A stretch of DNA of 64,000 nt, from positions 14,540,441 to 14,604,440 of the forward strand of contig NC_134838.1 in NCBI RefSeq assembly GCF_965363235.1. The letters run 5' to 3'. The position numbers and the translations under genes are program-made. Source of the stretch: Mytilus galloprovincialis (lineage: Eukaryota; Mollusca; Bivalvia; Mytilida; Mytilidae). The notes beneath the pieces are model-generated. The model was not told where the DNA came from. It made no database searches and saw nothing but the letters and a program-made list of their open reading frames with translations. Every line of letters begins with the position of its first letter. Positions within the stretch are counted from its first letter, which is position 1. This document shows positions 10,479 to 54,051 of the stretch, piece by piece.

Positions 10479-13400
10479 GTAATATTTCCATTTTAAATTA
10501 TTGTCAATGTCGTGTAAAAAAGTTTATGTGATCATGTTAACTTTATTTTCGGACAGTCAGACCGCATTAGGTATCTTAACTCTTAATTGGAAAAGTGACA
10601 GCTATCATCAAACCATTAACGAAATCAAAGGAAAAATAAAAAATTTAAATGAACATGGAATTTTAATCAACTTAAACTGGACACCAGGACATGCCAACAT
10701 AAAAGGAAATGATGAGGCAGACTCCCTGGCAAAAGAAGCTGCTAAAGAAACAGAAACACTAGCAGTTGATGACTTAGTATTTACAAAACAAGATGTAAAA
10801 AAAGCAGCTAGAAATTCAGTTACAAAAAAATGGCAACGCAGATGGGAAAACAGTAATGCTGGATGTTATTATTTCAGATTTCATCCTGAAGTTAAAAATA
10901 ACGTAAACAAAAATTTCCCGTCAAAAAGAATGTACAACATAATCAACAGTTTATGAACAGGTTATTCTAAATTAAATGCATACCAATTTACATGTATAAT
11001 AAACCAGCACATCAACTCGGAAACCTGTGATCACTGCAAACAAAAAGAAAATGTACAACACTACCTTTTTGAATGTGACCTGTATTCAGATGCCAGAGAC
11101 AAATTATTCCATCAAATATACTTCATAACAGGACAAATTCCAACAGATTTAGACAATTTATTAATCAATTTGCCAAATGCAGAAAGTATCAATCAACTAT
11201 TAGCGGAGTACATAGAGGAAACAAACCGTTTTAGTGGATAATTTAATACAAATTTCTTTTAATTTTTAATATTTTTTAATTTTTCATGCCATTTCGATAA
11301 CCTAATTAACCATTTTTTTCTTTTTTTTACTTGATACATTTATATAATTCTATAATATTTTAAAGCGCCACCTACAATATCTAAGTACAAAGGAGAAACT
11401 ACATTAGTGATAATAATTTTACAAGAGAGGATAATTCACAAGAGAGATTACTCTGTCATCACGACAAAGATTGAAGATTGAAGATTGTTAGGGTGTTCAA
11501 GTTTTTTTTTGTACCAAATTCTGTTTGATTAAATGATCTCATAATCTTTCAGAACTTTCTTTCCTGAACATTTTGAGCCTAAGTTTTTTACTGTAGGACA
11601 ACACATCTCCGAAAAATTAATGTTTGAAGGTTTAAAGTTTTGACCATTTTATGGAATTCTATCTGGTTGCATATGTCCATGTGCTGAAAAAATCTTTTGT
11701 ATTTCGAATGCATTGACTTTGAGTCTCTCAGAATTATTGGTCATCTATATTGGATCACCAATTTCTTTTCTCTGTTGTATAATCCAGCCGCATTTTTGCG
11801 CCTGTCCCAAGTCAGGAGCCTCTGGCCTTTGTTAATCTTGTATTATTTTAATTTTAGTTTCTTGTGTACAATTTGGAAATTAGTATGGGGTTCATTATCA
11901 CTGGAGTAGTATATATTTGTTTAGGGGCCAGCTGAAGGACGCCTCCGGGTGCGGGAGTTTCTCGCTACATTGAAGACCTGTTGGTGACCCTCTGCTGTTG
12001 TTTTTTATTTGGTCGGGTTGTTGTCTCTTTGACACATTCCGCATTTCCATTCTCAATTTTAACTTCTGAAGCAAATGATTAAAAGTTAAAGATATTAAAA
12101 TTTATTTGACGTATCTATAGTTTACATTTACATTACAGACATGGACATGATTGTATATGTTAATGATGACCAAGACATACTTCCCTAGGATCTCTGAATC
12201 TGAAGGAAAAAAACCTGCATTGGTTATCTTAAACAACAACATATACATTGAAATACATCAAAGTACAAAAATGCATCTTCAAAAAATAACACAATGTGTG
12301 CAGATTCATATGTTTTGGGTTTATATACAAATGTATGTCAATATTGCAATACACCTTAACGATATTCCCCTATTTCCAACTGACCCGGGAATCTGTCCTG
12401 CTTGAACTATTGTCACTTCTATACAGCCTACAAATATTTTTCATAGTACAAAATTGTACATGTATCATTTAATTTTCTTAATATAGATGATAATACACTT
12501 GTTATACATGTACTGTACATGTAGCTTAATGTTTTTGAATTACTTCAGTATTAACATTATATTTCAGAAAGAACCCTACAAACAAGCAACCCATTTAGCA
12601 CAGAATGAAGATCCATGGAATAGATTGAATTCAAAATGCACTCTTAGTTCTTCAAGAAGAGAAGTGTTTCATTTTGACCCTCAAGCACCAAAAGACAGTT
12701 TAGATTTTATACTAAAATCAGAATATGATCATCATGATGAATTTCTGAGAGCTAAAAATGAAACATTGTATCAACCTGAAAGTAAAGGTTCAGAGCATGG
12801 GTAAGATAAGAATTATACCTTAACTGTGTATTTAAAATTAAGTTTCCCCATTTAATATCGATTTGATACTGATACAAAGTAACATGTACATGTAGATATC
12901 AATTTCATTTTAAATCTTTTAAAATGCGGTCATTTAAAATTCTTTTTAAATTATTCAATCTTACAACTATCGAGGACATTATACATTATACAATAAGGCT
13001 TATAAAGCAGAATTCTGTTTGTTTATTGCTAATCTGCAAGCCAGCAAATTGTTCTTACTGAAAACAAGGACATTATACATTAAGTCTTAAAGCAGAATTA
13101 ACTGTATATTTGTTTATTGCTACCTATAGCTATAAGCCAGCGAGTTGTTCTTACTGAAAAAATTTTTGAGGTTTTATTCATATTTAAAAAAACTTAAACC
13201 ATACCTATCGCTTCGTTATTCAGGGTTTTATAGGTTTTTCTAGACATGGTTGCTGCTGTTACTATAAAACAAATCTGATAGATATTTCTTGCTACAGAAA
13301 AAAGGACTGAAAGTGTGTTTTTGTTTGTCTATTTGTATGTTTATATTTGTTTTCTTTTCTTTCAGGAGAGTGTTAAAAAACAGAGAAATAGAAATTGTTC

Positions 13401-21434: not shown

Positions 21435-21649
21435 TTAATGAATATTATATTTTGTTTTTGATGCAGCACTTTTTGGTCGGACTTCCTTTGTTGGTGGGTT
21501 GGCAGTTTTTTTGTAATAGTCATGGATTTTAACCAAACGTGTCTGTACATCTCCCAGTAGAGGGCGCTTCAATGGTTCTCCATCCCAACATTCTTGCATC
21601 AATTCCCAGCAATCTGTATCAAAAACTGCTAATCTCTCTGGACGTAAAC
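21435..21649 (-). CDS. DSTYK: DSTYK exon 13 (last)
   Basis: Acceptor 'ctattattttag'. Encodes [20 protein letters not shown] and [12 protein letters not shown], the end of the kinase C-lobe, then a short basic tail ([20 protein letters not shown]) to TAA at 21437-21435. The tail is not part of the kinase fold and is likely lineage-specific. Confidence 0.93.
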
Positions 21650-24600
21650 CTAAAATAATAGAACGAAACAGGTTGTTTAAAAAATATGTATTTGCAAAAT
21701 TAGAAATACAAGCAGCATGATGTTTTTAATTCAAGTTTTTAGATTTAGATAAAAGTTATTGAAGTCATAAGATTTCTTTTCGGGTAAAACAGAACATATT
21801 ATATCTAGTACCTAACTTTGATAAGGGGCCAGCTGAAATCCTGCTTCAGGTACAGGATTTTCTCATTGTGTTGAAGACCCATTAATGGGCTTTGGCTGTT
21901 TCTGCACTTTGGTCAGATAATTGGCTCTTTGACATATTCCCCATTTCCATTCTCAATTTTATCTTCTTTTGTACCTATATTCTTACCCTTTTTAACACCA
22001 GTCCACAAATGATCTTTGTTATCACAACGCTCGAAGGCAGTGGGCAGTTTGACATGTCCAGCACAAATATACCAAAACAATATACCAAATGCATAGACAT
22101 CAACACTGTTGTCATAGCGACCAGTGAACAATTCTGGTGCCATATGAATAGGAGTCCCAACAATGCTGCCACTCATCATAGCCTCGGGTTTGCAAAAACC
22201 CAAATCAGTGATTTTGGCTCTGTTTGATTTGTCAAGCTAAAATGTAATTAATTAATAATATCATTTCAGAAAATGGCACATGATATTTTAGAAATTGATG
22301 TTGAATTAATCGTAAAATAAAATTAATACTGATTAAAATTTCCATTACTTTCAAATGTTCACAAATAACATTCACCACTTTTAAAAAAAAATAAATTCAC
22401 TGTACAATATAACTTTAAAAGCAGTTTACTTCTAAAAAAATTTAAAGATACAATGTATTTGCTATGTATATTTAAAACTTTTATTCCCTGTATTTTCTGG
22501 CTTTTTTAGAGGCAAGGCATTTAAAAATATATTAGGCAATAAATTTAGAAATTGTTATTATTTCTTATTATTTCTTAGACTAATATAATTTTCCTACAGA
22601 TATTCATTCATTTAGTCCCGAATTTTAAATATTGAATATCCAGAGACTGAAATTTGAGTGCATGTATTTCAAATGATTGTTCCTCTTAAACATTTACAGT
22701 GATCTATTCTTATTTTTACATAATTATGAATTAAATAATACTACTAAAAATTTAAAAAGTTCTAGGAAAAAAATCAAGATCTGTTAATCAGTCAAATAAA
22801 CCATACTATATAAATTAAGTTACATATTCCTGGTAAAAACATACGTTGAGGATGGGGATTGGCTTAATGGTATAAATGAATGCCAGGATGATTGCTTGCT
22901 GATTTACATAAATAAATAAAATAGATATTTACAGCATGCATTTATGTCAATAATGATTTCAGATTTTCAATTCTAGATAATTCATTATTTCAATTTCTAT
23001 TTCAATAAATATATTCATTTTTTATTCCTAACAATTTATTCATTTTCTTTTCTTAAAAATTTATTCTTTTTCTTACTTAAAAAATTTATTCATTTTCTAT
23101 TCTTAATAATTTATTCATTTTCTATTTCAAAATATTTATTTTTTTTCTATTCTAAATTATTCATTCAATCTATCAAAATAATATGTAAATTATTTTTTGA
23201 ACAGCTCCAGTGACGATTCTATGATAATGAGGAATGTTAGTGCAAAATTAGACAGGAAAGCTCTCCTATCATGCTGGCTAGACATGCAGGATAATCGTTG
23301 TTTGATATCTTTGAATTTTTCATACATTAACAAACTGTCAGCTCAAACCACCTTTGCTGTTCTTTGTGATTTTAAGATTTTCAACAAAACTTGTGACAAA
23401 AGTGAGTCAAACCAGAGATCCCAGTTCCAAATGTCCCATGTGTAAATTAAGAAACTCTCTTTTCTTAAAGTTAAGTTTCCTTGATGTATAGTGATTTAAA
23501 GGACATAAAAAATATCCTACAAAAGATATAAATAAATGGAAGTTAAATTATTTTTAAATTCTACACTTAAAATAGAATTTCTAAAGTTCAGGTGTTCATC
23601 ACAAGTGACATAATGGCCTTCAACATGGAGCAACACCTCTCAAAGGTCATGATAGCTGTTAAAAAAGGTTATCTTTTGTATTACACATTAAACACAAAAA
23701 GTAGCATACAAAGATCAGTGTAGTTATTTTTTGTTATGAACTTTTCTTCAGAATATCAAACTAACTTTTAGATTACAGATTGTGTGAACATGCATAAAAT
23801 AATGTATATGTGTATTAAAACATTCAATGTTTTAATACACATAAAAAAGTGGGTTTTAATGTCCTTACATTGAGGGGATACCCCTAGGTGTTGTTCCCAA
23901 CCTGATAAAGGTCTTTCTTTGTGCATAATTTTAAATTAGAAAAGTCAACAATTATTTAATATCCTTACACATGAAATTAATTCCTGGTCTTGTAGCTACA
24001 TGTTCATCTTTTCTACTGATATATAATAACTAGAATCATGCAAATAAACTTTAGAAAAGGCATGTGAGCTCATCTTACAAATATGACACTTTTTCTAGAC
24101 CGCAAAACAGCACACGCAAAATAGTCGTCGCAAAGAATTGTAACCTTTGAAATTGTTGTCGCGCACTAAAACCCCCATGGGCACTTTCAAAACTTGGCAG
24201 GTATGTCATTGAATCAAATAAAAAGGGGGTAATAAAAATTTTTTTTATGAGTGGACAAACTGAAGTGTCTTACAAGCTTCATTGAATATAACTAAATATT
24301 GTAAAGTATATAACATTGATAACTGAACCATGTAATCAAGATTTAGATCAGGGTACCACTTAAAGTAACTGAGGAACTGACATCAGCATTATTTAAAGTT
24401 GAATATTGAATTAGTAAAGAGGTCAAGGTTATCTGACTCCTATCAGGACAATGATTTCAATTGACATATATTACGCTAATTACTCATAGTAAATGTGAAA
24501 CATTACAAATCAATAAATCTAATGTTGACTTATGTCAGTCACTGAACCATAACAATAAGGTCAATGTTATTTGAGATTTGATAGATAAAATAAATTTCAT

Positions 24601-27600
24601 ATTGTAGGACAATTATAAACAAAATATAAAGCTTTGTAACCACAGTTGCCAGATTTGAATAGCTATGACTTGCAGGTGAGATAAAAACAAAATAAAATAG
24701 CTCTGTAGATTGTTTTAAGTAAAAAATATCCATGCAGAAAACGAAAATTCCATGCTGGTTAGAGAATATTCAAAACAATTGTGAATATAAAAAGGGAAAT
24801 CAGAGTAGCATCCATGGGATATCTGTAAAAGGGCATGATTTAGTCAGATGCCTCAACTAAAATCCTGGACAATATGACAGTAACAACAAACTTTGAAGTG
24901 AATTTATTTATTATGAGAAAGAAATTTCAGACTGCACGCTATAAATTTTTCTAGAAATGTTGAATAATATTAAAGAGAAATTTTGTTTACAGAAGTTATA
25001 TTTTCAAAGATATCAAACAACAATACAGAGTGAAAAAGTTATGAATTTTAAACACTATACCAAAACATTTTTGAGTTTGATATCCCTGTGTACTAGTCCC
25101 TGACTGTGTAAAAATCGCATGCCTTCAACAACATCGGCTGCAACAACTAGTCTGAAATCAGATAACATAATAAATAATAATGTACCAAAACATTTTTCAC
25201 TGTGATGTCTCGATGGATTAGGCCTTCCCCATGGAGATATCGGATGCCCTCAACAACATCTATAGCTACTTGTAATCTACAAAATAAGGCACAGATATTT
25301 GAATAGGATAGCTTCAGCTAGAAGAAAATTTACTGATGTGAATTTAATAAATGAGTATGATTTAATTTCAGTATATATGAATGCGTGAGATGTGGGAATC
25401 ATGTTGTTCTGATGAGATTGCTTTAATTTGTTATATGAGGTGCCTATATAATCATTGTTAAAGATCATTCTAGTATTTACAAAAAATATTTGTCACATTT
25501 TTTTAATAAATTTTTCTTTAAACTGGAATAAATAATGCTAAACATATAGATTAAGGTGACTATAAACTTTTGTAGTTACATTTATTCCTTCCAATATGGC
25601 TTTGACTGACTATTACTTCTCATTGACTTGAGGCTACTTGAAAAGACATTAATACAAAACTTGACTAGTTATTTTTAAAATAGGTTATACAGTTTTAATT
25701 TAATAAAATCTTCTTGGACCCTTGACAATGATTCCTTCAGACATAAAATGAACGTCCATATGACCAAATTTTTTATTGGTCCAAATGACAAATAATCTAT
25801 GATAATAGATGCTAAGTCCTTTATCTTCAAGAAAAAAAATGTGATTCTTGTTTCAAATATAAGTGATTGTAATTTTGTATAAGACCATACCTGCTAATCC
25901 AATCTAAACCCTGTTTGATAGCACCATATAAATCTCTGACTAGTCTGTCCATCACCAGTAATACAGCAGGGTTTGTCCCACCTCCATAAGAGTAATCTAT
26001 CACAGAACCACGTAAAGCAACAACTCGCTCATGCTCTGGAATGTTTCTGTAGGCATAGAAAGTAAAAAAATAAAGAACAACTCACTGATGCTGAGGTATT
26101 TTTCTGAATTTATAAGAAGCTAAAATACAAAACACTTGAACATGCTGAGAAATGTTTCTGTTAACATAGAAAGTTAAATAAAAAAGATTGTGTCTAAGGA
26201 CTTGAATGCTGTGGTGGATAGTTGTCTAAATGACTATCTTATTCTGCCCCCCTCAACTTCGTAATATTCAACTTACAAGAGGCTCCCTAGAGCCTGAATT
26301 GCTCATCCAGTAAAAAAATGCATTTTTTACATTTCTTCTTTTCTTTTATTGTAATCAGTTGTTTAAATTGAGAATGGAAAAGGGGAATATATCAAAGAGA
26401 CAACAACCCGATCAAAGAGCATTGTCTGACAACAGCCAAATTTGTAGATTTTATCTAGTAGCATGTTTGTAAGTCTTGCACTCACAATGTACTGAGTAGT
26501 AGGGATAGGTCAGTGGAATAGGACACTATTGTAAGTTTTGAAATAATATATAATAAGGACAAGAAAACAAGGTTGAGGATTTCTTACTGATATTGTTAAA
26601 TAAATAAGATGTCAGTAAGAATTAAGAGATTCAAATCACAGTCAGATAATTGTCAGATCTATTTTAGTTACATGAAATAGTATAATATAGCTATAGGTTT
26701 ATTTTTTAATTAAAAATTTGTGATAGGGTATATATTTTAAAAATTTAAATATATATTAAAATGGTGGTGAACTGATGTCTCAGCTGCTGAGCCAGTAGTC
26801 AGCCCTACCAAAAAATGATGCTTATAAATCTAAATCTCTAAGGTTAACACTTTACATAGTCTTTCTTACTTCGTATAATAAAATTCTAATGCTAGATCAT
26901 TCCAGTGTTTCTCATCAGGTGGGACGACAGATTTTATTGCACATGGCTGACATCCTGCCCAGGAGTCACAGGAATACACAACACCATACTGTCCTCGACC
27001 AATTTCTCTTCCCATATGTGGCATACCTGTTAACGAGAGTGCACACGCTGAAATGTGTCGCCTTCTTTACTAATCATTGATATTATGTTGATAGTCCTAA
27101 ATATAAAGCTTTATTACAACTGTCCCATAAACTTAACCAAGAAAATAAAACATTGACCAATGAACCATGAAAATGAGGTCAAGGTCAGATGAACCATACC
27201 AGGCAGGCATCTACAGCTAACAATTCTTCCATATAACAAATTTAGTTGACCTATTAAGAAAAAAAGACCAAAACACAAAACCTAACACTGAGCAATGAAC
27301 CATGAAAATGAGGTCAAGGTCAAAAAAAATCTGCGCAACTGACATATAGATCATAAAATATTTCCATACACCAAACATAGTTGACCTATTGCATATAGTA
27401 TTACAGTGACTTGACTGTTAGTGTTGCTCTCCACCAATTGCAACTCATTCAAAATTTTGACCAAATTGCAATTTGTATTATTAAACCAAATTGTTCAACT
27501 GGTCAGAATATTGAACATTTTGTTCAGCCAAAATGTGAAAGTGCAAGGTGATAAAATAAAACATACTTACAATCCTATAAGACTTTAACTCCACTTTAAT

Positions 27601-30600
27601 GATATTGTGACAACAAATGGAAGTTTTTAACGACCTTGACTGACAAAAATCAGTCGATCAGTTTGTATATTATAATCATTTCCATGCTGAAGGGACTTTT
27701 ATTATTTTGAATAAAGTCTTTTTGAAAAAAAAAAAAAAAATGATTATCTCCCCATGGAAACTTCTTACAAACATATTGCAATTTTACATATATTTTACTG
27801 AATATGAAATGTTTTAATTCACATAATGTCTGATTCTTATGAATATAGAATACTTTTAGAAAGAAAAACTATATGAAAGCTTAGTTTGGCCTTTTTTATA
27901 GCAATTGAAAATAATAACAGTTCCTTCAGCATGGAAATGACTATAATATATCTATACAAACTGATAGACAGATTTTGTCAATACAACATTAAAGTGGAGT
28001 TAATGTGTTATAGGATTGTAAGTATGTTTTATTTTTATCACCTTACACTTTTATGACTTGGCTGTGGTTTTCTGCAGCAGTTAGTTCAATTTTCTGACCA
28101 GTTGAACAATTTGGTCAGAATTTTGAATAAGTTGCAATTGGTGGAGAGCAACACTAACAGTCAAGTCACTGTAGAAAAACAGACCAAAACTCAAAAACTG
28201 AACTTTGACCACTGAACCATAAAAATGAAGTCAAAGTCAGATGACACCTGCCCGCTTGACATGTACACCTTACAATCATTCCATACACCAAATGTAGTAG
28301 ACCAATTGCATACAGTATAAGAAAAAACAGACCATAACAATAACCACTGAACCATGAAAATGAGGTCAAGGTCAGATGACACCTGCCAGTTGATCATGTA
28401 CACCTTACAGTCCTTCCATACACTGAATATAGCAGACCTACTGCTTATAGTATCTGTGATATGAACTTGACCACCAAAACTTAACCTTGTTCACTGATCC
28501 ATGAAATGAGGTTGAGGTCAAGTGAAAACTGTTTGACGGGCATGAGCACCTTGCAAGGTACACACATACCAAATATAGTTATTCTATTACTTATAATAAG
28601 AGAGAATTTAACATTACAAAAAATCAAGTAGTCCCTTAACCATGAAAATGAGGTCAAGGACATTGGACATGTGACTTACTGAAACTTCGTAACATGAGGC
28701 ATCTATATACAAAGTATGAAGCATCCAGGTCTTCTACCTTCTAAAATATAAAGTTTTTAAGAAGTTAGCTAACGCCACCGCTGCCGCCGGATCACTATCC
28801 CTATGTCGAGCTTTCTGCGACAAAAGTCGCAGGCTCGACAAAAATACTTATTGAGAACCAAATGAAAGTTTACCACAGAGTCATCTGCTCTTGACCAAGG
28901 TATTTAAACTTTTGCAAGTTTACCTGTCCCATTGAATCAATACAATAGCTATTTGTGCTCTGTGTAGTTTATTCACTTGGACATTTAAATTTCTTCTAGG
29001 AGAAATCTATCACTCATTGATTAATTTGCCTGAACAAAAAAAAAAATCTTCTTTGTTGATCGAAATACATGTATAAACTCACATAAACTGCATGTGATAC
29101 GGTATTTATTCAATATCAATAATATATTTTCAATCTGTGCAATATATATATAAGCACTGATTTAATTATAAAAAGTTTATTTCTGATTTTTTTAAACTAC
29201 TGCATGCATTTATGTTTCAAAGAATTTGCATGTTTTTTTGTGGTAAAGAATACATTTATGAAGACCTTTATTTAAACATTATCATTTCAAGTTGTTATTT
29301 GTGAACAGACTAAAAAAGCAAATTTTAATAGGTAAAATGTTGAAATTTGATCACAAATCAACTTTTAATTTTTAAATCAGTGTTTATATCTAACAAATTG
29401 AAAATGTATTATTGATTGAATAAATACAACATCATATGCAGTTTTATAATTACTTATTTGTACATGTATTACCATCATTGACAGTTCTATTTTTTGTTCA
29501 GGTAAATTAATCAGTGAGTGATAGATTTCTCTTGCAAGAAATTTAAAGGTCCCATTGAATAAACTAAACAGAGAACAATAGCTGTTGTATTTGTTAGATG
29601 GGACAATAGAACTTACAAAAGTTTAAATGGACAGGTAACTTGCAGGTGAATCTGTGGAAAACTATGATAGGGTTCGCAATAAATGTCATACATTTTTTTA
29701 GTATGAATTTACAATGAATTTTAAAAGTAAGATTTTTTTGAGAAAGGAATCGCCGGCCTTCCTAACAAATATTTAATGTATACCTTGTATCGAATGAGGC
29801 AACATACTGCAGTGAGGTGAACATGCAAGTGTGAATAAATGTAAAGACTTTCAACATTTCAACAAAGTAACATTGCTAATACAGATGTCTTATTTTGATT
29901 GCATTACAAAGCTTTATTCTTAATTTATAAAAAAACAAAACAGTTATAATCTCACCATGTAAAATGGTATCTTTTATTGAGGTACTTTCAAGAGCTACTT
30001 TGGCAACTTTCGGCGCATGAATCTTTCTAAGTTTAAGTCTTTCCTCTTCTATCTTATCCAGACGACCAGAGTGTTTCTGTTCCAACTGGCGCAATGCGGT
30101 GGCAAAGGCATCATGGGATTTGTTCAGTCGCTCTTTTATCTGACCTGATATACTCTTCGCCAATCTAAATTTGATTAAAAATTTGTATATTAAGAGTGTC
30201 TGTAAAATTACAATATTTATTTAAGATATTTGACTTTCATTTAAGAATTGAATGCTTCTTTTTGTAAATTTATTGGGGTGTAAAAGTGTTGACCGAAGTA
30301 CATTTTGTATGAAGCGCGAAAGCTTCATTCTCAAAATGTGCGCACGGTCAACGCTTTTACAACCCCATAAAGTTACAAAAAGAAGCATTCAATACTTATA
30401 ATTACATTTTTTAGCTATGATCATGAAAACACGAATTTTATATATTTTTTTATTTAATTCACCTGTGCACTTTATTGTTGGACCACGTGTTATCATGAAG
30501 AAAAAGTTGTATTGAGCAATGCAACTACTTACAGAATAACACATGATGTGCAGTTAGCCAATCAGAATAAAGTATTATAATGAAACATACATCTAATGTA

Positions 30601-33600
30601 ATTATTACTAGAACATTTTACTTATAAGATACTTTGATGAATAAACCCCAATACTCAAGTGTTTGCACATTATTTCTCATACCTAGATACTTATATGAAA
30701 AAAACAAAACATAAAGGCTTTATAGTATCCTACAAATAAAGAGGTCCTGATTAAGAGAGTATGACTAAATTGTTTGACAAACCTTGCTTCACTGAGGTTA
30801 CTAAGTATATCTGTTGCTAATTTCTTCTTCCATTCTAAATCTATCTTTGGTTGGGAATGCCATGGCATAGACTGGACCAACTGTTAAATAAAATTAATAT
30901 GTTTCATTTTGAAATCCAGTTTACCAGTATATATTATCACCTAACTCAATGGCCTTAGTCACAAAGACATCCTATACTCCTGTTCACAATTATAAACATA
31001 GACACATTGACACATTTATTAGTACTGCTACAAAGTCCTGATTGGAGAACATGAATAACTCTTAAATTTGTGCTGCCAAAAATATGCATGTCTGAGAAGT
31101 ATATCAGTCATAAACATATATCAAATTGATAAATAACTAAAACAGGATTTTCATATTTTACTATTGCTAAATATGAAACAAAAGTTCATAAAGTACTTTA
31201 ATATATCTTTTTGACCAAGGGAGACCAGTCTTACTCAAATGTAAATCTAGATGATCAAGTTGTAACTATCCAATTAAGTTAAGTACTAATTGTTAACAAA
31301 CAGATGCCTAAATAACACCAATAGTTGGTGGTCAGATAAGCCCAAATTTGACATTTTTCTAATTTTTACATTCAAATCTTGTCATTCGAAGTTTTTCATT
31401 CATGTTTATTTCATCCTGTTCAAAGTAACTTATCATTTCTACCTGCTTCATGCGTTCAAATAATGTCCTAACAAATGACGAACTTGACTGTAAACTGATT
31501 TCTACTTGGTAAGCAGCATTCACAATCTAAAACAAAAAATAATGACATATCAAATCATATATTCTTTAAAGCAATCTGATGAGTCAAGTCTTTTTCAACT
31601 GATTTTTATAGTGTGTTCTTATGGTGTGCTGTTAAAACATTGTCCCAGGTTAGGGGAAGGTTGAGTGCTCACAAACATTCTTAATGTGCTTGGCCCAAGT
31701 CAAGAGCCTGTAGTTCGGTGCTTTAGTGGTTATCTCTGGTTCATGTCTGTCGTATTTTTTGTTGTAAATTGTTTTGCTATTAACTAAACTGTTAGTTTTC
31801 TCAATTGAGTTTTGTTTCATATTTTTAATGTCAGGGCCTTTTATAGTCGACTTTACGGTATGGATTTTTCTCATTCTTGAAGGCTTTACAATTGCCTGTA
31901 ATTGCTTACATCCACTTCATTTGAACTTTGGTAGCTAGTTAGCTAGTTGTCTCATTGGCAATCATACCAAATCTCTTTATTTTTAAACTACATAATATCT
32001 CACAAAAGTATTACAATCATGATTTATCTTAGTATGCAACAAAAAAAAAAACAGACAAACAGTTTCTGTCATAATTTCCAAAAACATCTTTTGGCTTTAT
32101 GTATGGCATTACTGTCCCTCACAAATTGCCAAGTAAAATTTTGATGTCATATTGGAAAATTTTGAACATAATAATGCACAAGTGATTGTTATATTACTAC
32201 AATAGTTTAAGTATTTAAACATCTCGGTCAAGTGTCACAGATTCCAAATAGTGATAAGGTATATACTTATCATTGTAACTTCAGAACTCTTTTGTGAATG
32301 AAAAGTGTATAAATGTGCAGACTTTAGTAGCAATAATAAAGGTTTTCTGAATAGAATTTAGATGAATAATTTGAGGTGATTCTATAAATATGATAGTATA
32401 ATGAACCTAAGTGATTTACAAGATCCAAATCTACGTTATCATTATGAAAATATCTCATAAAGGAAATCCGGTAAATACATTGAAATACATTAATTTACCT
32501 GTTTAAGAGCTTCACTTGTTGAGTTTTCATTTGCATGGTCTTTATCTATCCTTTCTAAACTTTCTAAACATCTGCTTAAAGTTCCTGAAAAATACAAAAA
32601 TATAAAGATATAATGGTGTTGGCCAACCATTGTTTCTGTATCTTTTGGAAGGAAATTCATGCATCTATTAACATTTTGGAACAAGACGTTTAAGTTTTTC
32701 TTGTTCTTGTGCTTTTATTATCCATTATACCATTACCCTGGTGTCAAAAATCTTTGCTAATCAAGTGAATAGGAGTGGTCTGGATCATAACCATTATTAG
32801 TGAAAATGGGTGTTCAGTACTTTGCTAATTTTTATTGATCATACTTTTTTGTGTATTTTGTTTGTATTACATAGCTTGATTTTAATAGGGAAGAGTTCAG
32901 ATCTAAACATTAAGTGTATATGTGTATGCCCTAAGTCAGGAACCTTATCAATTGATGCCTATCTAATGTTATAAAAACATATGTGTCAATTTTTTTTGGT
33001 CATTTCCGGATCTTTTTAAGACACTTAGTGGCTTAGAGCTTGAAATGTATAGATGCTTGAAATAAGGGTCATAGTAACTTCTGTTTGCTGAATTATGACT
33101 ACCTTCAGATACAGAGATATGAACTGGGACATAAAACTTAACCAACATGAACTTGGATGTAAACCAACCAACGTGGTTTAAACTTGAAATACAAATCAAA
33201 TAACCTTCATGCAACACAAAGGTTGTCTCCCTTAGATGTACTAAGTACCTACATAAAAAGTTACAATATTATTGCCCTACCAGTTACTGTAAATTTAGAA
33301 ATCATTGTGTGCAATGATTATTGGGATTTTCTCAATTTAGACTATGATGTGATTTTAATGATTGCGATATTGAGCAAAATCCTGTTTAATTCTTATAAAA
33401 AATTTCAAAATGTGAGTTTAAACTATTGTGATTATAACCCTGCCACATTTTTAGCAATAATAAAAACATCTCATTAATTTCTGAATTTACAGTACTAAAA
33501 TCTGGTTGTGAATGACGTTGAAAATTCAATACACACAAAGGTATTGAATGTAGTTCATTAGTTCTCCAAAAACTGCTAAGGTGAAATTTAAACGTTAGAA

Positions 33601-36600
33601 ATTAATATGGTCAGATCATATGTTTTAGTATATCATATGAATTTGTACAATTTTTGCTTTTTCAATGGAAAATATGACGTCATATCCCTTTCCTCCATGG
33701 ATTCTTTTTTTGAACATACTTGATTTGCATAGGATTTTTTCAATACAAAAAAAAAATCATCAGGTTTAAAGTATTAATGCATTGTGAAAAGGAATATTTC
33801 ATCAATGAAATTCATTGAGTCAGATATTCTCATGAATATCCTTTTCATATTGGATACAATTATTTTAAAGTCTGATGCAGACATTTTGTAGTCAAAGCGT
33901 TTTAACTGAGTTACTACACAGGCGTCATTATGGAGTAAAGGGTAGGCGTCAAAAGGCGACATTATGGAGGAAAGGGTTAATTACATCAATGTAATGTAGG
34001 GTTTTATTACGGACACATTCAACAACACAAATCCTATCAAATGTATGGGTTCCACAAAGTTTTGTAACAAGAGGCTGATAACTGGATTCTTAATAGCACT
34101 AAAAACTAGAGGCTCTAAAGAGCCTGTGTGGCTCACCTTGGTCTATGTGAATATTCAAGGACATGACAAAATTGTGTTTTGGCGACAGTGATGTGTTTGT
34201 AGATCTTACTTTACTGAACATTCTTGTTGCTTACAATTATCTCTATCTATAATGATTGACCAAGTAGTTTCAGTGGAAAAATTGTTAAAAATTGACTATA
34301 AAGGGCAATAACTCCTTAGGGGGTCAACTGACCATTTTGATCATGTTGACTTATTTTTAGGTCTTACTTTGCTGTAAATTATTGCTGTTTACAGTTTATC
34401 TCTATCTATAATAATATTCAAGATAATAACCAAAAACAGCAAAATTTCCTTAAAATTACCAGTTCAGGGGCAGCAACCTAACAACAGGTTGTCTGATTCA
34501 TCTAACAATTTCAGGGCAGATAGATCTTGACCTGATAAACAATTTTACCCCATTTCAGATTTGTTCTAAATGCTTTGGTTTTTGAGTTATATGCCAAAAA
34601 CTGCATTTTACCCCTATGTTCTATTTTTAGCCATGGCGGCCATCTTTGTTGGTTGGCCGGGTCACCGGACATAATTTTTCAACTAGATACCCTAATAATG
34701 ATTTTGGCCATGTTTGGTTAAATTTGGCCCAGTAGTTTTAGGAGAAGATTTTTGTAAAAGTTAACGACGACGGACGACAGACGACGGACGCCAAGTGATG
34801 AGAAAAGCTCACTTGGCCATCAGGCCAGGTGAGTTAAAAACTTGACTCTGAGGAGGATATCTGTGTAATAACCTTGTGATAAAATAATGATTTGTGTTTC
34901 ATACACTTGGCACTTAAGAGGGTGGTAAAGGGGGGATGTAAACACGGAAACACTTTAAATAAAAATCACAAAAACGTTGCAAGGAAAATATAAGAATCAG
35001 GAAAAACGAAGCACGACATATAAAATTGTAATAGGAAGGAAAAGCACTAAAAGTTATTACTCAACCGTCTTGGAGATCATGTAGTTATTATAAAGGGACA
35101 CTACGACCCTGCGGTCACCTTTTAGTGTCTGCTTATTGCGTCTGATTTGAAAAAAATAAATTATTCATAGTAACTTAATAGCCATTAATATCCTGGGAAC
35201 ACATAATTTAAAACAATCTGCGGACTGACTTTGAATTTAGAACTGGATTAATTTTTAGTCAAATGCGGGACAAGCACGAGAAATTTAAAGTACTGACACG
35301 AAACACAGAAAATAAATGTGGTGAAACATGAAACACGCACATCTTACCAAATATGAGAAAAAGAGAAATAAAAGGGGCAGAAAAAGTTTCAAGATAATAA
35401 CCCTTTACCACTCTCACTTAATTATCACATACTTAAGTACTATTGTTACTTATGAAGGATAAAGTTAATTAATTGAGAAATTAAATGAGGTACTTCAGTT
35501 CAAGCATGGATGTTATTGTAATTTAATATGGCCTTGTTTTGATGGTACTTAGGTCAGGATTATATAAAGAACTCTAAAAATACTTCTTTGTCAACTCCTG
35601 AATTCATTGTTCTATATTTATACAAAATTGCTTGAGATCTAAATTCAATTATCAAAATGGAAATTTCTTGTCAGAATTAGAAAAAAGCTTGATAAACCAC
35701 TAGGTCACACAATAATGCAAGAATGCAGCAAGATGACATTAAACATTTTAAAAGTCAATACAAATAAAAAATATTAATTTTACAGGAAGTTTTTAGACAA
35801 CAAATCGATTACGTGTTCTTGTTAGGAAGAAGGAAATTAATATCACAAAACAATAAATAAACAAAAAATAATCAAACATCTCTACATAGTCAATAATAGT
35901 AAAAAAAACAAACATATACATTGATTTATAAAGTTTTGAAATATATGTTATTCATGAAGTTTTCAAGCAGAATATCTACACATGAAGCCATAAATTATCC
36001 CATCCTATGTACATACACTGAGAATATTCTATATGTGTGTTGTGTGCTTTATATTTTTTTGGTGTTGTATATGTGCTTTGTTACAATGATTTAGATGTAT
36101 GTGTTGCATCCATTGTACATGACTGATTGTTCAATGTGAGCTTATGTTATATTAATACTAATCTTTCCGTAAATAACTAAACTTACTGTAAATTCAGAAA
36201 TTATTGTGTGCATTTATTATTTCAATTTTGTCATTTTAGACTTAAATGCGATTTTATATTTTACAATTTTAAGAAAACTCCTGTTTAATTCATAAAAAGC
36301 TTTTCAAAATGCAAGTTTAAATTATTGCGCTTACAACTCTATCGCATTTTTCGCCATAATAAAAACCTTGCAACAATTTCTAAATTTACAGTATCTGATA
36401 TTTCATTTGAAACAGACCAAATGTGGTATATTTCCCTCTGATTTCATTAAGTTCAGAGATCAATCTCAGCTTACCTCTAAGTGACTTATCATGTTTCATA
36501 TATATATATAAGGTCAACAATCAGGAAATGATGAGATGTCAATCAATAACAATAGGTCACTAGCTTGATTTATTGTTGGTATTTAACACCACTTTCAGCA

Positions 36601-42600: not shown

Positions 42601-45600
42601 ATTTCAATTTTTGTTGAAATCAGACTAAGTTTAATTTTGGACCCTTTGGACTTTAGTGTAGACCAATTTGAAAACAGGACCAAAAATGAAGAATCTACAT
42701 ACACAGTTAGATTTGGTATATCAAAGAACCCCATTTATTCAATTTTTGATGAAATCAAACAAAGTTTAATTTTGGACCCCGATTTGGACCAACTTGAAAA
42801 CTGGGCCAATAAATCAAGAATCTAAGTACATTTTTAGATTCAGCATATCAAAGAACCTAACTGATTCATTTTTTGTCAAAATCAAACTAAGTTTAATTTT
42901 GGACCCTTTGGACCTTAATGTAGACCAATTTGAAAACGGGACCAAAAGTTAAGAATCTACATACACAGTCATGACAGTTAGATTCGGCATATCAAAGAAC
43001 CCCAATTATTCAATTTTGATGAAATCAAACAAAGTTTAATTTTGGACCCTTTGGGCCCCTTATTCTGTTGGGACCAAAACTCCCAAAATCAATACCAACC
43101 TTCCTTTTGTAGTCATTAACATTGTGTTTAAATTTCATTGATTTCTATTTACTTAAACTAAAGTTATTGTGCGAAAACCAAGAATAATGCTTATTTGGGC
43201 CCTTTTTTGGCCCCTAATTCCTAAACTGTTGAAACCTAAACTCCCAAAATCAATCCCAACCGTTCTTTTGTGGTCATAAACCTTGTGTCAAAATTTCATA
43301 GATTTCTATTAACTTAAACTAAAGTTATAGTGCGAAAACCAAGAAAATGCTTATTTGGGCCCTTTTTGGCCCCTAATTCCTAAAATGTTGGGACCAAAAC
43401 TCCCAAAATCAATACCAACCTTCCTTTTGTGGTCATAAACCTTGTGTTAAAATTTCATAGATTTCCATTCACTTTTACTAAAGTTAGAGTGCGAAAACTA
43501 AAAGTATTCGGACGCCGGACGACGACGACGACGACGACGACGACGACAACGCCGATGCCAACGTGATAGCAATATACGACGAAAAATTTTTCAAATTTTG
43601 CGGTCGTATAAAAATGTAAGGAATAAGTTCTGAGTTTAGAAAATTATATTGTATCTAATTCTACAAAAATTATTACAAAATGGATATTACTAAGATCCAT
43701 AGCCATGATAGAAAACCCTTTTGTCAATACAGATATATTGAGGGTGTATATTTAAGAACTGAATGCTTCTTTTTGGAAATTTATTGGGGTGTAAAAGTGT
43801 TGACCGAAGTACATTTTGTATGAAGCGCGGAAGCGCTTCATTCTAAAAATGTACGCACGGTCAACGCTTTTACAACCCTATAAAGTTACAAAAAGAAGCA
43901 TTCAATACTTATAATTACATTTTTTAGCTATGATTATGAAAACACAAATTTTATATATTTTATTATTTAATTCACCTGTGCACTTTATTGTTGGAGCACG
44001 TGTTATCATGAATGAAAAGTTGTATTGAGCAATGCAACTGCTTACGGAATAACACGTGATGTGCAGTTAGCCAATCAGAATAAAATATTATAATGAAACA
44101 TACATCTAATGTAATTATTCATATATAAAACATCTTTTATAATACCTGTATAAGAGTCCCTAAGTATATTGACTGATTTGACTAGTTTTCCTGCTATAGA
44201 CTGATTTAAGGCACCAAGCACCAATTCTTGAAGTTGATAAGTACATATTTTAAGGCCTTTATGTGTCATGATTGCTCCATCTTCATTGAATTCAACACCT
44301 GTATGAATATAACGTCATAAAATAATAACAATTACAATATATCCATCTTAAAAATGTTCAGTCTAACTACACCTAAGCTTGTACAAAAAAAATGGTATTC
44401 AGAATTTGACACATACCATGGTCATGATGGTTTGAATCAATAAACCATCATGATGTTATATACTAAACTTTAAGGTGTAATAATCATGAAAATCCCTAAA
44501 TCCAACCTGATAGTTCATAAAACAATATTGAAAACCAATTTTCTCAATGACAATTAATACTTTTTTTATGATTTTTTTTTTTTATATAAGTTTCTCAAAA
44601 GGGTTGGTTCAATCATGTCAATATTCTAAATTCTTAGAATTGCATATTTTCAAAAAGTTGACCATTTGAGACTCTCATAGGAAAATAAGACCCTTTAAAT
44701 CCTTTAGTGATCATGGTATTATTTTATAAACTAAAATTAGGCCATGAAATATAAAGTATTTGAAATTGTAGAATTTAACATTGACAGTAATTGGACTGCA
44801 TTAGTGGTTTATTCTTAAAGGCTGATCATGACAGAAAACAGGATTACTATGTCTACAAATCAGAACTTTTATCATGTTTATTGCAGGCAAAAAAAAAACG
44901 TCGGTTTGGTTTACTGGGTTGGAGAGACATTCCCATATATACAAATTCCCAAACATAAACTAGATTGTTTGACGATAAGTGTTGCTTCTTGTTTATGACA
45001 TGTGAGAGTTCCAGTTATTTATTTAATAAATATTTTATGTTCGTTTAAGTGAAACGAATTAGAACATAAATGTATTTAGTTTTTGTCTTGAATTTCTTAA
45101 TTGTTTTGTTTAAAGAGTTAGGCATGATGACCAATATGTTTTACAGAATTACTCTATCAATAGTATATCACTTTATGTATTCACTGATCATGCTGATAAA
45201 CAAATGTTCATCATGTTCTATAAAATATGGACCTTAATTTGAAACAGACAAAACAATGCAAAATGTATACATTGGAGATAACCTTATAAGTTGCTCCACA
45301 ATGAATAAAAGGTCAGTTACCCAAACGTTGCAAACATGTTTTGTGATATAATCTAGAGGCTCTAAAGAGCCTGTGTCGCTCACCTTGGTCTATGTGAATA
45401 TTAAACAAAGGAAGCAGATGGATTCATGACAAAATTGTGTTTTGGTGATGGTGATGTGTTTGTACGTCTTACTTTACTGAACATTATTGCTGATTACAGT
45501 TATCTCTATCTATAATGAACTTGGCCCAGTAGTTTCTGTGGAAAATGTTAGTAAAAATTTACAAATTTTATAAAAATTGTTAAAAATTGACTATAAAGGA

Positions 45601-48600: not shown

Positions 48601-51600
48601 TTCATCTGAAAATTTGAGGGCAGATAGATCTTGACCTGATAAACAATTTTACCCCACGTCAGATTTGCTCTAAATGCTTTGGTTTTTGAGTTATAAGCCA
48701 AAAACTGCATTTTACCCCTATGTTCTATTTTTAGCCATGGCGGCCATCTTGGTTGGTTGGCCGGGTCACGCCACACAATTTTTAAACTAGATACCCCAAT
48801 GATGATTGTGGCCAAGTTTGGTTCAATTTGGGCTAGTAGTTTCAGAGGAGAAGATTTTTGTAAAAGTTAACGACGACGGACGACGACGACGGACGACGGA
48901 CGCCAAGTGATGGGAAAAGCTCACTTGGCCCTTCAGGCCAGGTGAGCTAAAAATGAATAATATGAGTAAACGAAAAATAAATAGCGACTAACAACAACCA
49001 CTATATTACAGTCTTCTAATTTGGGACAGGTGCATACACAATGTAGCAGGGTTAAACACGTTTGTAGACTACCAACCCTCCCCTAACCTGGGATATTAAT
49101 GTTACAGCCTAAAAAGAGACCAGACTATAAAATTCAATGGAAAAGGCTTGAGTCATCAGATCGACATGAAACAAACAAAAATAAAACAAGTAACAAGTAA
49201 CAATGAACAAACATGATAAATGAACTTCACAGACACAAAGTACAGATCTTAGACTACTAACAAGTGTACCCCAACATCCAAATTAATATAAATGTAAATT
49301 GGTTTTTTTAACTACATGTATGTTTAAAGAAGTCATGTATACATAGATTTTTATACAATAGTAAAAGCCTACCTAGAAATTCATAATCAGCAGCTTTTTG
49401 TACCAACATTTCTGTATTTTCTGCTATGGTAAATCCTATCATTTCTCTGATCTCATTTGTTTTGGCCACACTTATTCTCATTAAAGATTTATACAGTTCC
49501 ACTTCTTTTTCTCGTGCAAACGTCAATTTCTTTGGTGTAATTAACATGTCTCTTGCCATATCAAAAGCAGACATGATAAACATACTTAGACACCGTGAAT
49601 GAGAGTTATTCAAAACTGTAGAGGAGTTTACTAAGTATCTCTGTAATGTCTGCTGAACGAACATATTGAAACGATAAGAATGGCTTTCAAAATTGTCAAT
49701 TAGGTCACTTTCAGTTTCATAATAGTCAGACAAAAATGATCGTCTAGTGTTCCGACATGTTGGGTTCTCATTTAAGTATCCTAAATCACATAGCTGTTCG
49801 TAAACTTTGGTATTCTTAAGAATGGTCATTTTGTTCTTTCCTATAAGTGAATGATTTTGTGATCGTGAATTTCCATTAACTCTATCTAAAGTTCTTTCTA
49901 TCCTCCTTGATGGTAAACTAGACACATTGTCCCTTTCAGTGTCCATTGTTGAATTTGTTGAATTGTTATTTGGGTTTTCCCCATTCATTAAATGTTGCCT
50001 ACATTTTGGAACACGTATGAAGCATACAGATTCATACTGGGATATTTCTTGAAGATTTTGTAGTGTCTCAATCTCCTGTTTATTAAATTAAAAGAATATA
50101 ATTTAAAGAAATCACAATACACATACCTTTTTTTTCTTTGATTTTTGTAAGTCCTTAATTTACTTGTTTAGAATTCGAATGTTTAGTAATTTTGCACTAG
50201 TCATGCTAGTTCTCTTTGTTCAAGTTCAGGGTTTAACCCATCAATTAATGTGCCTGTACAAAGTCATAACTACAGCACAGTATTTTGTTGACCTTTCTCT
50301 TGTACATGCATATATAGATATAGGTTAGTCACTAGTCAGTATGCAGAATTTCTCTTAATACTGCAGTGTACATACATCAGGAATGGGGTAATTGTAATCA
50401 GTATTTGTAATCCATTGTAATTGATTACATTTTTTTCAAAGTAATAGTCTATAATCAGTAATTGTCAAATCTTTTTATTACATTTCAAAGGATAACAGCA
50501 AACTTTTTTATTGCATTTAAGTTGAATAGTTTGACAAACTAAAACCTAGATGAAATTCAGGCAACTGCATGTATACTTCATTTTACATGGTATATGGTAC
50601 AGATAAAAACGAATGCATAAATATGACTGGAGATTTTTACGAGTTGTCTTATCATATGCTTATCTCAAAGCTGCTTAATTTTTAACCAGATGTACTGACA
50701 TATTAACTTTATTTCCTGCTTTTAAAACAAATTCATGACTTACAATGCTTGAAAATACTTAACGTTTAAAAATTGAAAATAGAAAAAAGCTTAGGTTAAG
50801 CATGTTAAGTGCTGTACTATATTTGAACTTAAACATTTAACAGGAAAACCTTGATCATGTTAAAATAACAGTAATCAAATGATCAATAAGATACAAGTTT
50901 TTGGCTTGGAAAAGATAAACATTTGATCTATCTTAATAATATGATATAAGGATTAAGAAAAGGTAACTGTCAGTCTTCTTGACAATGAACCAATACAATC
51001 ATATTCTCATTCAGTAAAAGATGCGTGTACATGTACATTTTTGTACATTGTATAAATTTGTATCCTATTTTTAACTCAAAATAAAATAGTGTTTATCAAT
51101 TTAAATAAAGTAAAAAGAATTCTCAACTGCCCTCTTCTACATGCTTTAATTTCATTCACCGAAAACAAAAATTTGTTGTCTAATTAATCTAGACCAGAAC
51201 AAGGATATTTTATGAAAAAAATACAAAAATTCTAAGTAAAATGCAAATTATTTGAACATGTTTAAAGCTATATAATATTATTCATATTTTGACAAACTTG
51301 CATTACATCTGAATAAAGCCTTTAGTATTTAAGTGTATTTCCTTTTTTCTTTTGTTGAATTCTTATTTTTTTCTATTTCTTTTCCTTCTTTCTTACATTC
51401 TTTCTTAATCACATAATTATTTATTCATTCCTGTTCTAACTTCTATATATCATTATAACGTTGCATGCTATATATATGTATATGAAATGGTTAAGTGGAG
51501 TTTGTATTTCAAGAAAAACAGATAAATACAAGCTGTATAAGCATTATGGGCTCTGCTTATTGTTGAGGGCTGTACAGTAACCTATAGCTGTTAATTTCCG

Positions 51601-54051
51601 TGCCATTTGGTCTCTAGTGGAGAGCAGGGGTTTAATTATCTTTCATGTTGACTGGTACTTTCCACGTTTCTAGGTGGTACTTTTCAATTTATTCCATGAA
51701 TATCTTATATAAAAATTCCTACATTTAGGCGGTACTTGTCAATAGCATAGGAGGGTAAAAGTACCGGGTACCGCCTCCTAATGAATGGCCTGGGAGAGTT
51801 GTCTCAAAGGCAATCATACAACATCTTCTGATTTTTAAGTGTGCAGCTTGTCCTTAAAAATTATCAGTGTATTTTTGTTTAATACGATCAGATGTGGCAG
51901 ATAATATCATATTTGTAAAGATCACGGATAAATATAATTAAACCAATTAGTCTAGAAAACAAGTTCAATATTTAATCATATATATATCCTCTTTAAATTT
52001 TATTTAATCCTCTTTCATGGAAAATTCCAAAAAATTCTACCATATGTTTAGAATGTTATTTAAGTGTCAATCAAAAACAAAATTTGTAAATTAGTAAAAA
52101 AAATCTTAAATTGGACATGTAATATTCACTGTGACATTATAGAACAAGAACATTTATGTACTTGATCTAAAGTTATAAGTTTCTATCCACAATCCATTAA
52201 AATGGTAAATTGGTAAATACATCTATAGATGTACAAGATTTATTCACTGTGAAGATAACAAAAGTCACAAAGCTTCATCTCAACTTCATTTTTTTTTATA
52301 TAAATGAGACCGGTAGTTTTCTTGTTTGAATTGTTTTACATTGTCATTTCAGGGCCTTTTATAACTGACTTTATAATGCGGTATGGGCTTTGCTCATTGT
52401 TGAAGGCGTACAGTGACCTATAGTTGTTAATTTCTGTGTCATTTTGGTCTCTTGTGGAGAGTTGTCTCCTTGGCAATCATACCACATCTTTTTTATATTA
52501 AATATAAACTAACCTCATCTGACAAATCCTCTGAAAAAGAATAAACCAGAATTGGAGAAACACTCTCTGTACATGTCTTATACACTTTGCTGATGTCTCC
52601 GAGGGAAGGTGCAACAATAATCTGAGCCCCCTGTCTGAGTATAACATGATTATAAGAAATTTCCAAAATGGCTGAATCTGATGCCTTGTCAGCAGAATGA
52701 ATCTGTAAATCCTTTAGTGGTACAGTTTTGGATTGTTCTTTATAAGCATCTAAGTGATCAACAATTTCATAGTCGTCTGGCAGTGCTAGACTGTAAGAGA
52801 GACTCTCGCCATGTTTAAATCGCACCATACGAAACGGTAAATCATCATGCCCTGCAGAGTTAATAATGGGGAATATCCCATTGTTGAATATTTCATTTAC
52901 AATCTTGAATTTTGAATAAGAGTTTTGTCCCAAAATTACAATTCCTGGAGGTCTTTGTGCAATATCCAAAATCTCTTGTTCCTCTTCTCGTAATAGTTCT
53001 GCTTTAAACAGTGACCCTGAAAAAAACATGAAATAGACAATTTTATCATTTACTTAGCATTGATATGATAGCTTTTGCATATATGTGTAATGAGCAGAAG
53101 TACACAAGCCATAATTTCCCACCCGGGCTGATAACCCATATCAGGTGCATCTCGTGCATAAAACCCATAATAGTGCCTGTCGTGCAAGTTACTTCCGGTG
53201 TTTCCGGTATCGGTTGTTTACTTTACCATTGTGACGTCAGATATTTTTTATGACAACGTCAAATTTACAGGAACTTTTGTGGGGAATGCCATTGACAATT
53301 ATGAATCATTTTATAGTACAACAAACCTGGAGTAATAATGATCATAAAACTCTTTCAAAATGTTTCAAAATGCCTCTATAGGAAATGTTACCATACATAC
53401 ATGTATATATGGAGGTAGTGATGCTGTTGTTGGACAATTATAGTATATTTGATTCAAAATTTAACTTCTATATAAAGTTTTTGACTGTTTTGGTTATTGC
53501 ATTTGTTTATTTTCTTACATAAAACTATTGTCGGAAGTATATGATAAAGCGATTAATACCTGGCCTGTTCCATATCAGCCTGGGTATCATCCCTTGACCC
53601 ATATCAGCATATGGGGGTCTCGGGATGATACCCAGGCTGATATGGAGAAGGCCAGGTATTAATCTCTATGTATCTCAAGACATGTAGAATGTATACAAAT
53701 ATAAGACAAAGTTTCATAGTCCCATAGAATTATCAGCACTGATATATATATACATGTATCATAAAGATTCTAAATTTTAATTGACAACATATTTTACACA
53801 TTTGAATAGTGTTCTTTTAAACAGACAGTGACACCAGCCACTTTGTGGGAACCAGCTCTTCTCCCTTTGTCGCTTTGTCCTTCATACAGGAACTTCTCAA
53901 GAAGAATGAAAAGAAAATAGAAGTTTTTATTTTTTTATTTTACTGTCTTTTTTTTACATTGAATCTATGGGAAAATTCTGACCCTAACAGTGACAGACAG
54001 ACAGACAGACAGACAGACGGACAGACGGACGGACGGACGGACAGACAGATG

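Follow-up and report, generated by a model that had tools for sequence, protein, structure and literature searches.

A probable mutually exclusive exon pair exchanges the catalytic loop of the DSTYK kinase in Mytilus galloprovincialis

Mutually exclusive exons are known above all for adjusting binding surfaces, channels, or linkers. A locus of the mussel Mytilus galloprovincialis raises the question of whether splicing could also choose the catalytic loop of a protein kinase, and with which consequence for the enzyme. In the window, a stretch of 64,000 nucleotides (contig NC_134838.1, positions 14,540,441 to 14,604,440), two adjacent exons of the DSTYK gene each encode this loop, and an original prediction made from the letters alone had proposed that they are used in a mutually exclusive way. 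Here, the gene was rebuilt and searched against protein, contig, and structure collections, and the possible meanings of the exchange were weighed against each other.

The complete DSTYK gene, as rebuilt from the sequence, lies on the minus strand and has 13 exons between a presumed ATG at 54905 and a stop at 21435, with GT/AG at every internal boundary. The reconstruction places exon 1, counted from the presumed ATG, at 54785..54905 (the N-terminus was aligned in two transcript-size sequences, P0003 and P0001), followed by exon 2 at 52514..53016, exon 3 at 49373..50075, exon 4 at 44146..44298, exon 5 at 32499..32584, exon 6 at 31443..31526, exon 7 at 30783..30880, and exon 8 at 29956..30164. 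The kinase domain starts in exon 9 (26870..27026), which holds the glycine loop and the AIK lysine and is supported by Pfam as well as by the reconstruction. Exon 10 (25891..26046) is the 5' partner of either copy of exon 11, exon 12 (21987..22236), with the DLG motif and the activation segment, is the 3' partner of either copy, and exon 13 (21435..21649) contains the end of the kinase domain and the stop. With either copy of exon 11 the translation is an intact protein of 941 aa with no internal stop. Upstream of the gene, at 59675-61285 on the minus strand, a 536-aa ORF encodes a B-box zinc finger, matches the NHL repeat weakly, and marks a TRIM-like gene. On the plus strand, an RNase H-like ORF (10483-10956, Pfam PF00075) is followed in the same frame by a further ORF up to 11241, and this segment (10483-11241) is probably a retroelement remnant. 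A dispersed repeat, recognised by its similar translated frames, occurs in the DSTYK introns and beyond (34511-34678, 45844-46056, 47028-47426, 47612-47887, 48522-48866, and 56477-56734).

The two copies of exon 11, 11a (25186..25276, minus strand) and 11b (25061..25151, minus strand), are both 91 nt long, enter after the 'AG' of exon 10 in phase 2, and exit in phase 0. Reading from 25276 to 25186, the boundaries of 11a are TTTTGTAG/ATTACAAG on entry and GTTTTG/GTACAT on exit, while those of 11b, from 25151 to 25061, are GATTTCAG/ACTAGTTG and GTTTTG/GTATAG. Exon 11a encodes helix alpha-E and a variant catalytic loop, HRDITVKN, with derived residues that are common to five other sequences (P0001, P0141, and P0162-P0164); 11b encodes the canonical loop HRDIKLKN, is identical in P0003, and shares its loop with P0002 of M. 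coruscus and P0161 of M. edulis. The copies agree at 21 of 30 residues and 62 of 91 nucleotides, leaving the isoforms 9 residues apart, in helix alpha-E and the catalytic loop. Adjacent homologous exons of equal length and equal phases are what characterises mutually exclusive exons, and 11a and 11b have this arrangement. A tblastn search of the 64-kb window with exons 10, 11a, 11b, and 12 revealed no third exon 11 (other matches had E values of at least 0.24). Coordinates, 91-nt lengths, phases (2 and 0), and GT/AG sites were all re-derived as originally predicted, and both loop sequences were confirmed by translation.

The exons are separated by an intron of only 34 nt (25152..25185, minus strand), in a gene whose other introns range from 337 to 11561 nt. 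This intron, which the original prediction did not mention, appears too short for the donor of 11a to be spliced to the acceptor of 11b, and we count it as the strongest mechanical argument for mutual exclusion. A survey of human mutually exclusive exons treats a distance of <50 nt between donor and branch point as potential steric interference (PMC5740500, accessible text), and by this criterion of the human survey the whole 11a-11b intron is below the limit wherever the branch point sits. Joining 11a to 11b is sterically improbable because the intron between them measures only 34 nt. Since the sole CTGAT-like branch site in the intron has its A six bases before the intron end, the branch point of 11b may lie inside exon 11a; wherever it is, the two exons should not be joined. 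The frame points in the same direction. In silico translation with both exons gave a frameshift and a stop after eight codons (TSCCSRCC and stop), just as had been predicted, and inclusion of neither exon led to a frameshift and a stop as well. The donors of 11a and 11b, matching the consensus at 5/9 and 4/9 positions, are the weakest of the gene (6-8 in the other eleven). Weak donors are common in regulated exons.

That the gene encodes a DSTYK follows from full-length similarity to named DSTYK proteins together with a C-terminal kinase domain (Pfam Pkinase and PK_Tyr_Ser-Thr). The 11b protein is 99% identical over aligned columns to P0003 (a 941-aa ORF on a 3056-nt contig) and 93% identical over aligned columns to the DSTYK of M. 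coruscus (P0002), for which BLASTP gives a lower value (87%) as its gene model contains a gap and ends in a different C-terminus. The M. edulis DSTYK (P0161, an incomplete model of 328 aa), which carries 11b, is 99.5% identical over the last 186 residues, and the DSTYK-like protein of Pecten (P0008) reaches 66-67% identity with the mussel protein. The deposited P0161 lacks several exons and P0002 is without the portion encoded by exon 4 and has a different C-terminus; both show only 11b. The whole protein and the 11b loop resemble DSTYK (dusty kinase, RIPK5) of other animals, from which the 11a-type loop differs: the family pattern HRD[I/V]K[L/M]KN is found in the 11b isoform and not in the 11a isoform (HRDITVKN). 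With the rest of the protein unchanged, the 11a isoform, judged by its sequence, is a DSTYK with a variant loop and not a member of another family. Membership in the LIMK/TESK family was rejected, since the named full-length kinase matches among those listed were DSTYK, and the 60 best PDB matches to the kinase domain with 11a included no LIMK; the comparison with LIMK made below concerns function only. Elsewhere in the family, isoforms X2 of the nemerteans Tubulanus and Lineus (P0072, P0004) have an extra in-frame copy of the exon-10 segment (~52 residues) that Tubulanus isoform X6 (P0057) is without; this duplication in the same kinase domain is an independent one and seems to serve as a cassette exon.

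The 11a type recurs in other sequences. A search with the full-length 11a isoform (region 741-815; 702 candidates, 690 passing, 120 listed) had as its best match P0001, a 933-aa ORF on a 3036-nt contig that is ~80% identical to the mussel protein over aligned columns. This sequence must be spliced, because the same exons span 33 kb here and the contig has only 3036 nt, a reading under which a retrocopy of a spliced message would look alike. Its exon 11 is of the 11a type, being identical to window 11a at 26/30 residues and to window 11b at 19/30, while 209/227 residues of the kinase domain outside exon 11 are identical to the window protein. The other 119 proteins among the 120 listed of 690 have HRD[I/V]K[L/M]KN. 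A 75-aa query (33/71 candidates passing) added P0141, an ORF with an 11a-type loop, and P0125, a predicted protein in which 11b comes after an 11a sequence that extends to HRDITV. A 251-aa query (region 58-108; 12/13 candidates passing) further returned P0162, P0163, and P0164, ORFs that begin before 11a, continue across a short intron, and enter 11b out of frame. For P0164, an inferred intron of 28 nt makes 30/30 codons compatible with the 11b of P0125 and 28/30 with window 11b, versus 10/30 in the other frame; for P0162 and P0163, an inferred intron of 33 nt makes 24/30 codons compatible with window 11b, versus 11 or 12/30, and the value rises to 26/30 if TGA is read as Trp, with codons 10-30 all compatible, in a test that is permissive, each residue set holding up to eight letters.

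Among the 165 proteins fetched, 156 have a K-type loop, 5 a T-type loop (P0001, P0141, P0162, P0163, and P0164), and 4 are exon-10 pieces without the loop; P0125, which has a partial T-type loop as well, is tallied as K-type on account of its 11b. Shared flanks group P0125 with P0164, and P0141 with P0162 and P0163. Beyond the window, the 11a type is present in three sequence groups, and in two of these 11b adjoins it at a distance too short to splice; by their similarity, all three groups appear to be mytilid-like. Within the 165 proteins fetched, the 11a-type loop occurs only in mytilid-like ones; we do not conclude that it is absent outside mytilids, as clustering of the protein database at 90% conceals second isoforms and keeps these counts from measuring the prevalence of 11a, and as 120 of the 690 matches were listed. 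Among bacterial and archaeal contigs two bacterial loci matched, one of which (L001) is a bacterial kinase with HRDIKPSN, and viral contigs gave no match. The transcript-size contigs carry 11b in P0003 and 11a in P0001, which come from different species, and no 11b was observed to go with P0001. Exon 11b is the copy present in both annotated Mytilus proteins (P0002 and P0161) and in P0003, the closely similar transcript-size sequence, so that 11a may be uncommon or of restricted use. A chance ORF or an assembly artefact was rejected as the source of 11a, given that the type recurs in other sequences. The original prediction had named two outcomes that would undo it, 11a never being spliced and 11a being broken in relatives; the in-frame, spliced 11a type of P0001 speaks against both, though for another species. 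It had also suggested a search for the pair in other mollusc DSTYK loci, and 11a and 11b do recur together in two mytilid-like groups, at inferred spacings of 28 and 33 nt. With the 34-nt intron and a double inclusion that breaks the frame, this recurrence at inferred 28/33 nt leaves the mutually exclusive reading well supported.

The direction of change was examined by comparing 11a and 11b rows with chosen outgroups. T25, V26, and I20 are fixed in 5 11a rows and found in 0/4 11b rows and 0/23 chosen outgroup rows, where P0141 equals P0162 and P0003 equals window 11b, so that not all rows are independent. Relative to the outgroups, 11b is distinguished mainly by residue 5 (A or V); its M at residue 11 also occurs in some outgroups. 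On average, 11a-type sequences differ by 2.6 residues among themselves, by 9.95 from 11b, and by 7.8 from the outgroups; for 11b versus the outgroups the value is 4.2. A Nei-Gojobori comparison of 11a with 11b in the window (30 codons) counts differences at 16 of 21.8 synonymous sites and at 13 of 68.2 non-synonymous sites, corresponding to pN 0.19 vs. pS 0.73, with synonymous sites near saturation and 30 codons only. We read these values as an old duplication in which one copy was remodelled and then held. The few non-synonymous differences and the recurrence of the 11a type elsewhere indicate that the pair is more than chance.

In our view, 11a and 11b are very probably a genuine and old mutually exclusive exon pair of the mytilid DSTYK gene, a judgement that covers the exon-pair reading, the functional explanations discussed below being alternatives within it. 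We hold with high confidence that the pair is real and recurring, built for steric exclusion, and that it swaps the catalytic loop. Exon 11 would have been duplicated in tandem before the sampled mytilid-like lineages split. The resulting intron of 28-34 nt would be too short for removal, with any branch point no more than about 30 nt from the 11a donor, and exclusion in vivo would be steric. Transcripts with both exons or neither would have a broken frame and should be degraded, and each isoform would be a complete kinase. Exon 11b would retain the ancestral HRDIKLKN, and replacements (K to T, L to V, V to I) would have reshaped 11a, which stayed fixed thereafter. This mussel species would include 11a in its transcripts, with regulated use of the pair and both isoforms in one animal. 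The 11a isoform would have a changed activity, its loop retuning catalysis or acceptor choice with Asp and Asn kept, rather than abolishing activity.

What the exchange does depends on the loop. Both isoforms keep the catalytic Asp and the metal-binding Asn of HRDxxxxN, the AIK Lys, and the DLG Asp, and the three loop positions read TVK in 11a vs. KLK in 11b, with T at the position of the loop Lys. In Ser/Thr kinases this Lys contacts the gamma-phosphate. Departures from it are known in kinases such as TESK1, whose loop is DLTSKN; no TESK was present among the 60 kinase rows listed, which included LIMK and others. Ser/Thr kinases have HRDLKPEN and tyrosine kinases HRDLAARN, in which the AAR arginine binds the tyrosine hydroxyl (PMC4771162, accessible text). 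LIMK1 has the loop HRDLNSHN (PDB 3s95), without a Ser/Thr-type Lys, and under equal conditions phosphorylated 80% of cofilin (Ser3), 50% of S3Y, and none of S3T (PMC6835155, accessible text). A kinase without the loop Lys can therefore be active and dual-specific, as LIMK1 phosphorylates both Ser and Tyr. The original prediction took the loop Lys to be a Ser/Thr signature, in which the accessible text of PMC4771162 bears it out, and its suggestion that the loss could make the protein a scaffold becomes less compelling, as LIMK1 (3s95; PMC6835155, accessible text) shows that the loss need not have this effect.

One possible, if doubtful, reading of the exchange is an on/off switch, in which 11a gives a weak or dead DSTYK that acts as a scaffold or dominant negative and 11b the active kinase. 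The Lys that 11a replaces is nearly invariant in DSTYK (P0001 column 774 of a 40-row alignment, at least 90%), with only P0001 departing from it in the DSTYK rows compared, and the Pfam Pkinase score falls from 122.1 bits with 11b to 114.9 with 11a. The PK_Tyr_Ser-Thr score, however, is not lowered (112.5 with 11a vs. 112.2 with 11b), all four key residues listed above are retained, LIMK1 is active on Ser and Tyr without the Lys (3s95; PMC6835155, accessible text), and there is no obvious reason why a dead loop should keep T and V.

A shift of acceptor choice toward tyrosine is about as plausible as a dead scaffold for 11a. Here TVK (small, small, basic) would stand where tyrosine kinases have AAR, while the KLK of 11b keeps the Ser/Thr-type Lys. 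The two loop classes and the role of the AAR arginine (PMC4771162, accessible text), the LIMK precedent, and the pattern of Pfam scores between 11a and 11b are consistent with such a shift. Its basis, however, is sequence resemblance; the AAR motif, unique to tyrosine kinases and unseen in TKL kinases according to the accessible text of PMC4771162, is itself absent from 11a, whose TVK resembles it in size and charge only, and the tyrosine kinase loop HRDLAARN was accordingly rejected as an assignment. We put forward only tentatively that the acceptor-residue class or catalytic mode of mytilid DSTYK is chosen by splicing, between a Ser/Thr-type KLK and a tyrosine-kinase-like TVK in a sterically enforced pair that exchanges helix alpha-E along with the HRD loop. 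Considering both readings, it seems more likely that 11a retunes the kinase than that it kills it.

Structure models were rejected as evidence for a change of specificity, since the Foldseek neighbours (50 listed) are mostly tyrosine kinases for 11a-type and 11b-type models alike. In the AlphaFold2 model of P0001, the exon (residues 750-779) takes in the greater part of helix 746-765 (alpha-E), then the catalytic loop, and finally the beginning of strand 778-780. Model confidence is 89-92 over residues 741-760 and drops to 80 (761-770) and 72 (771-780). The P0003 model has poor confidence there (64, 53, 43, and 31 by tens over residues 771-810), and because it collapses from about residue 771 the loops of the two models are not comparable. 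In another part of the protein, the best PDB Foldseek match of the P0003 model is the bacterial dynamin-like protein BDLP (2j69; E 4.8e-11, 752 columns), a match of weak geometry (TM 0.26/0.34, rmsd 40 A) with GIVILGQ near the P-loop position; BDLP (2j69) is not among the 50 Foldseek rows listed for P0001. This match raises the possibility that in DSTYK a kinase is fused to a degenerate dynamin-like protein, which would occupy residues ~1-650 (window 54905-29956).

It is unlikely that the pair mainly sets the amount of protein, with errors of choice leading to degraded, frameshifted messages and the two proteins being equivalent. The early stops of the both-in and both-out forms would suit this explanation, which leaves the fixed and specific changes of the 11a loop unexplained, and the 34-nt intron would hinder double inclusion in the first place. 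Very unlikely is that 11a is a relic, a decaying duplicate spliced rarely or never so that only 11b matters: P0002, P0161, and P0003 all carry 11b and the 11a donor matches only 5/9 consensus positions, but the 11b donor is weaker still (4/9), the frame and splice sites of 11a are intact, its derived residues are fixed in the other 11a rows, and a spliced 11a-type contig exists (P0001).

Among kinases, the mutually exclusive exon pairs of JNK (6a/6b) and p38alpha lie in the lower lobe and change substrate or regulation. To our knowledge, none of the FYN, JNK, and p38 pairs replaces the HRD catalytic loop. FYN likewise has mutually exclusive homologous exons inside the kinase that alter substrate or regulation, but its exons encode the linker between the SH2 and kinase domains together with the N-terminal portion that holds the ATP-binding site (PMC9741552, accessible text), while the DSTYK pair covers the HRD loop. 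The human mutually exclusive tandem exons of the accessible survey text (PMC5740500) are alike in being adjacent homologues that break the frame together and have donor and branch point too close; in mussel DSTYK the whole intron is 34 nt and the swapped exon holds a kinase catalytic loop. LIMK1 and LIMK2 (HRDLNSHN) have loops without the Ser/Thr Lys, as 11a does, and LIMK1 is active and dual-specific (PMC6835155, accessible text), but they are separate genes with a fixed loop, whereas the 11a loop is a splice choice. No report of a DSTYK exon pair was found among the titles and abstract openings listed from the accessible open-licence full-text literature, a body to which subscription journals are largely external, and a search there for mutually exclusive exons in connection with the kinase domain and its catalytic loop gave no match. 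A study of alternative splicing in macrophages reportedly mentions DSTYK once. The accessible text of PMC9573974, a paper matched for DSTYK and invertebrates, makes no mention of exon, isoform, mollusc, or oyster. Mutually exclusive exons as a mechanism are known, the DSTYK catalytic-loop pair appears to be new, and the catalytic switch itself is what we infer from it.

In this gene the exchange affects a kinase's catalytic loop: Asp and Asn stay in place, the Lys typical of Ser/Thr kinases gives way to Thr, and the arrangement recurs in mytilid-like sequences. The gene models of M. coruscus and M. edulis, which have 11b only, may miss a conserved isoform. Two kinases that are otherwise identical and stand 9 residues apart offer a handle on the role of the loop in acceptor choice, and also on what DSTYK, a poorly understood kinase, does. 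If true, an acceptor class chosen by splicing would amount to an experiment of nature, confined to one exon, on the determinants of dual specificity in kinases.
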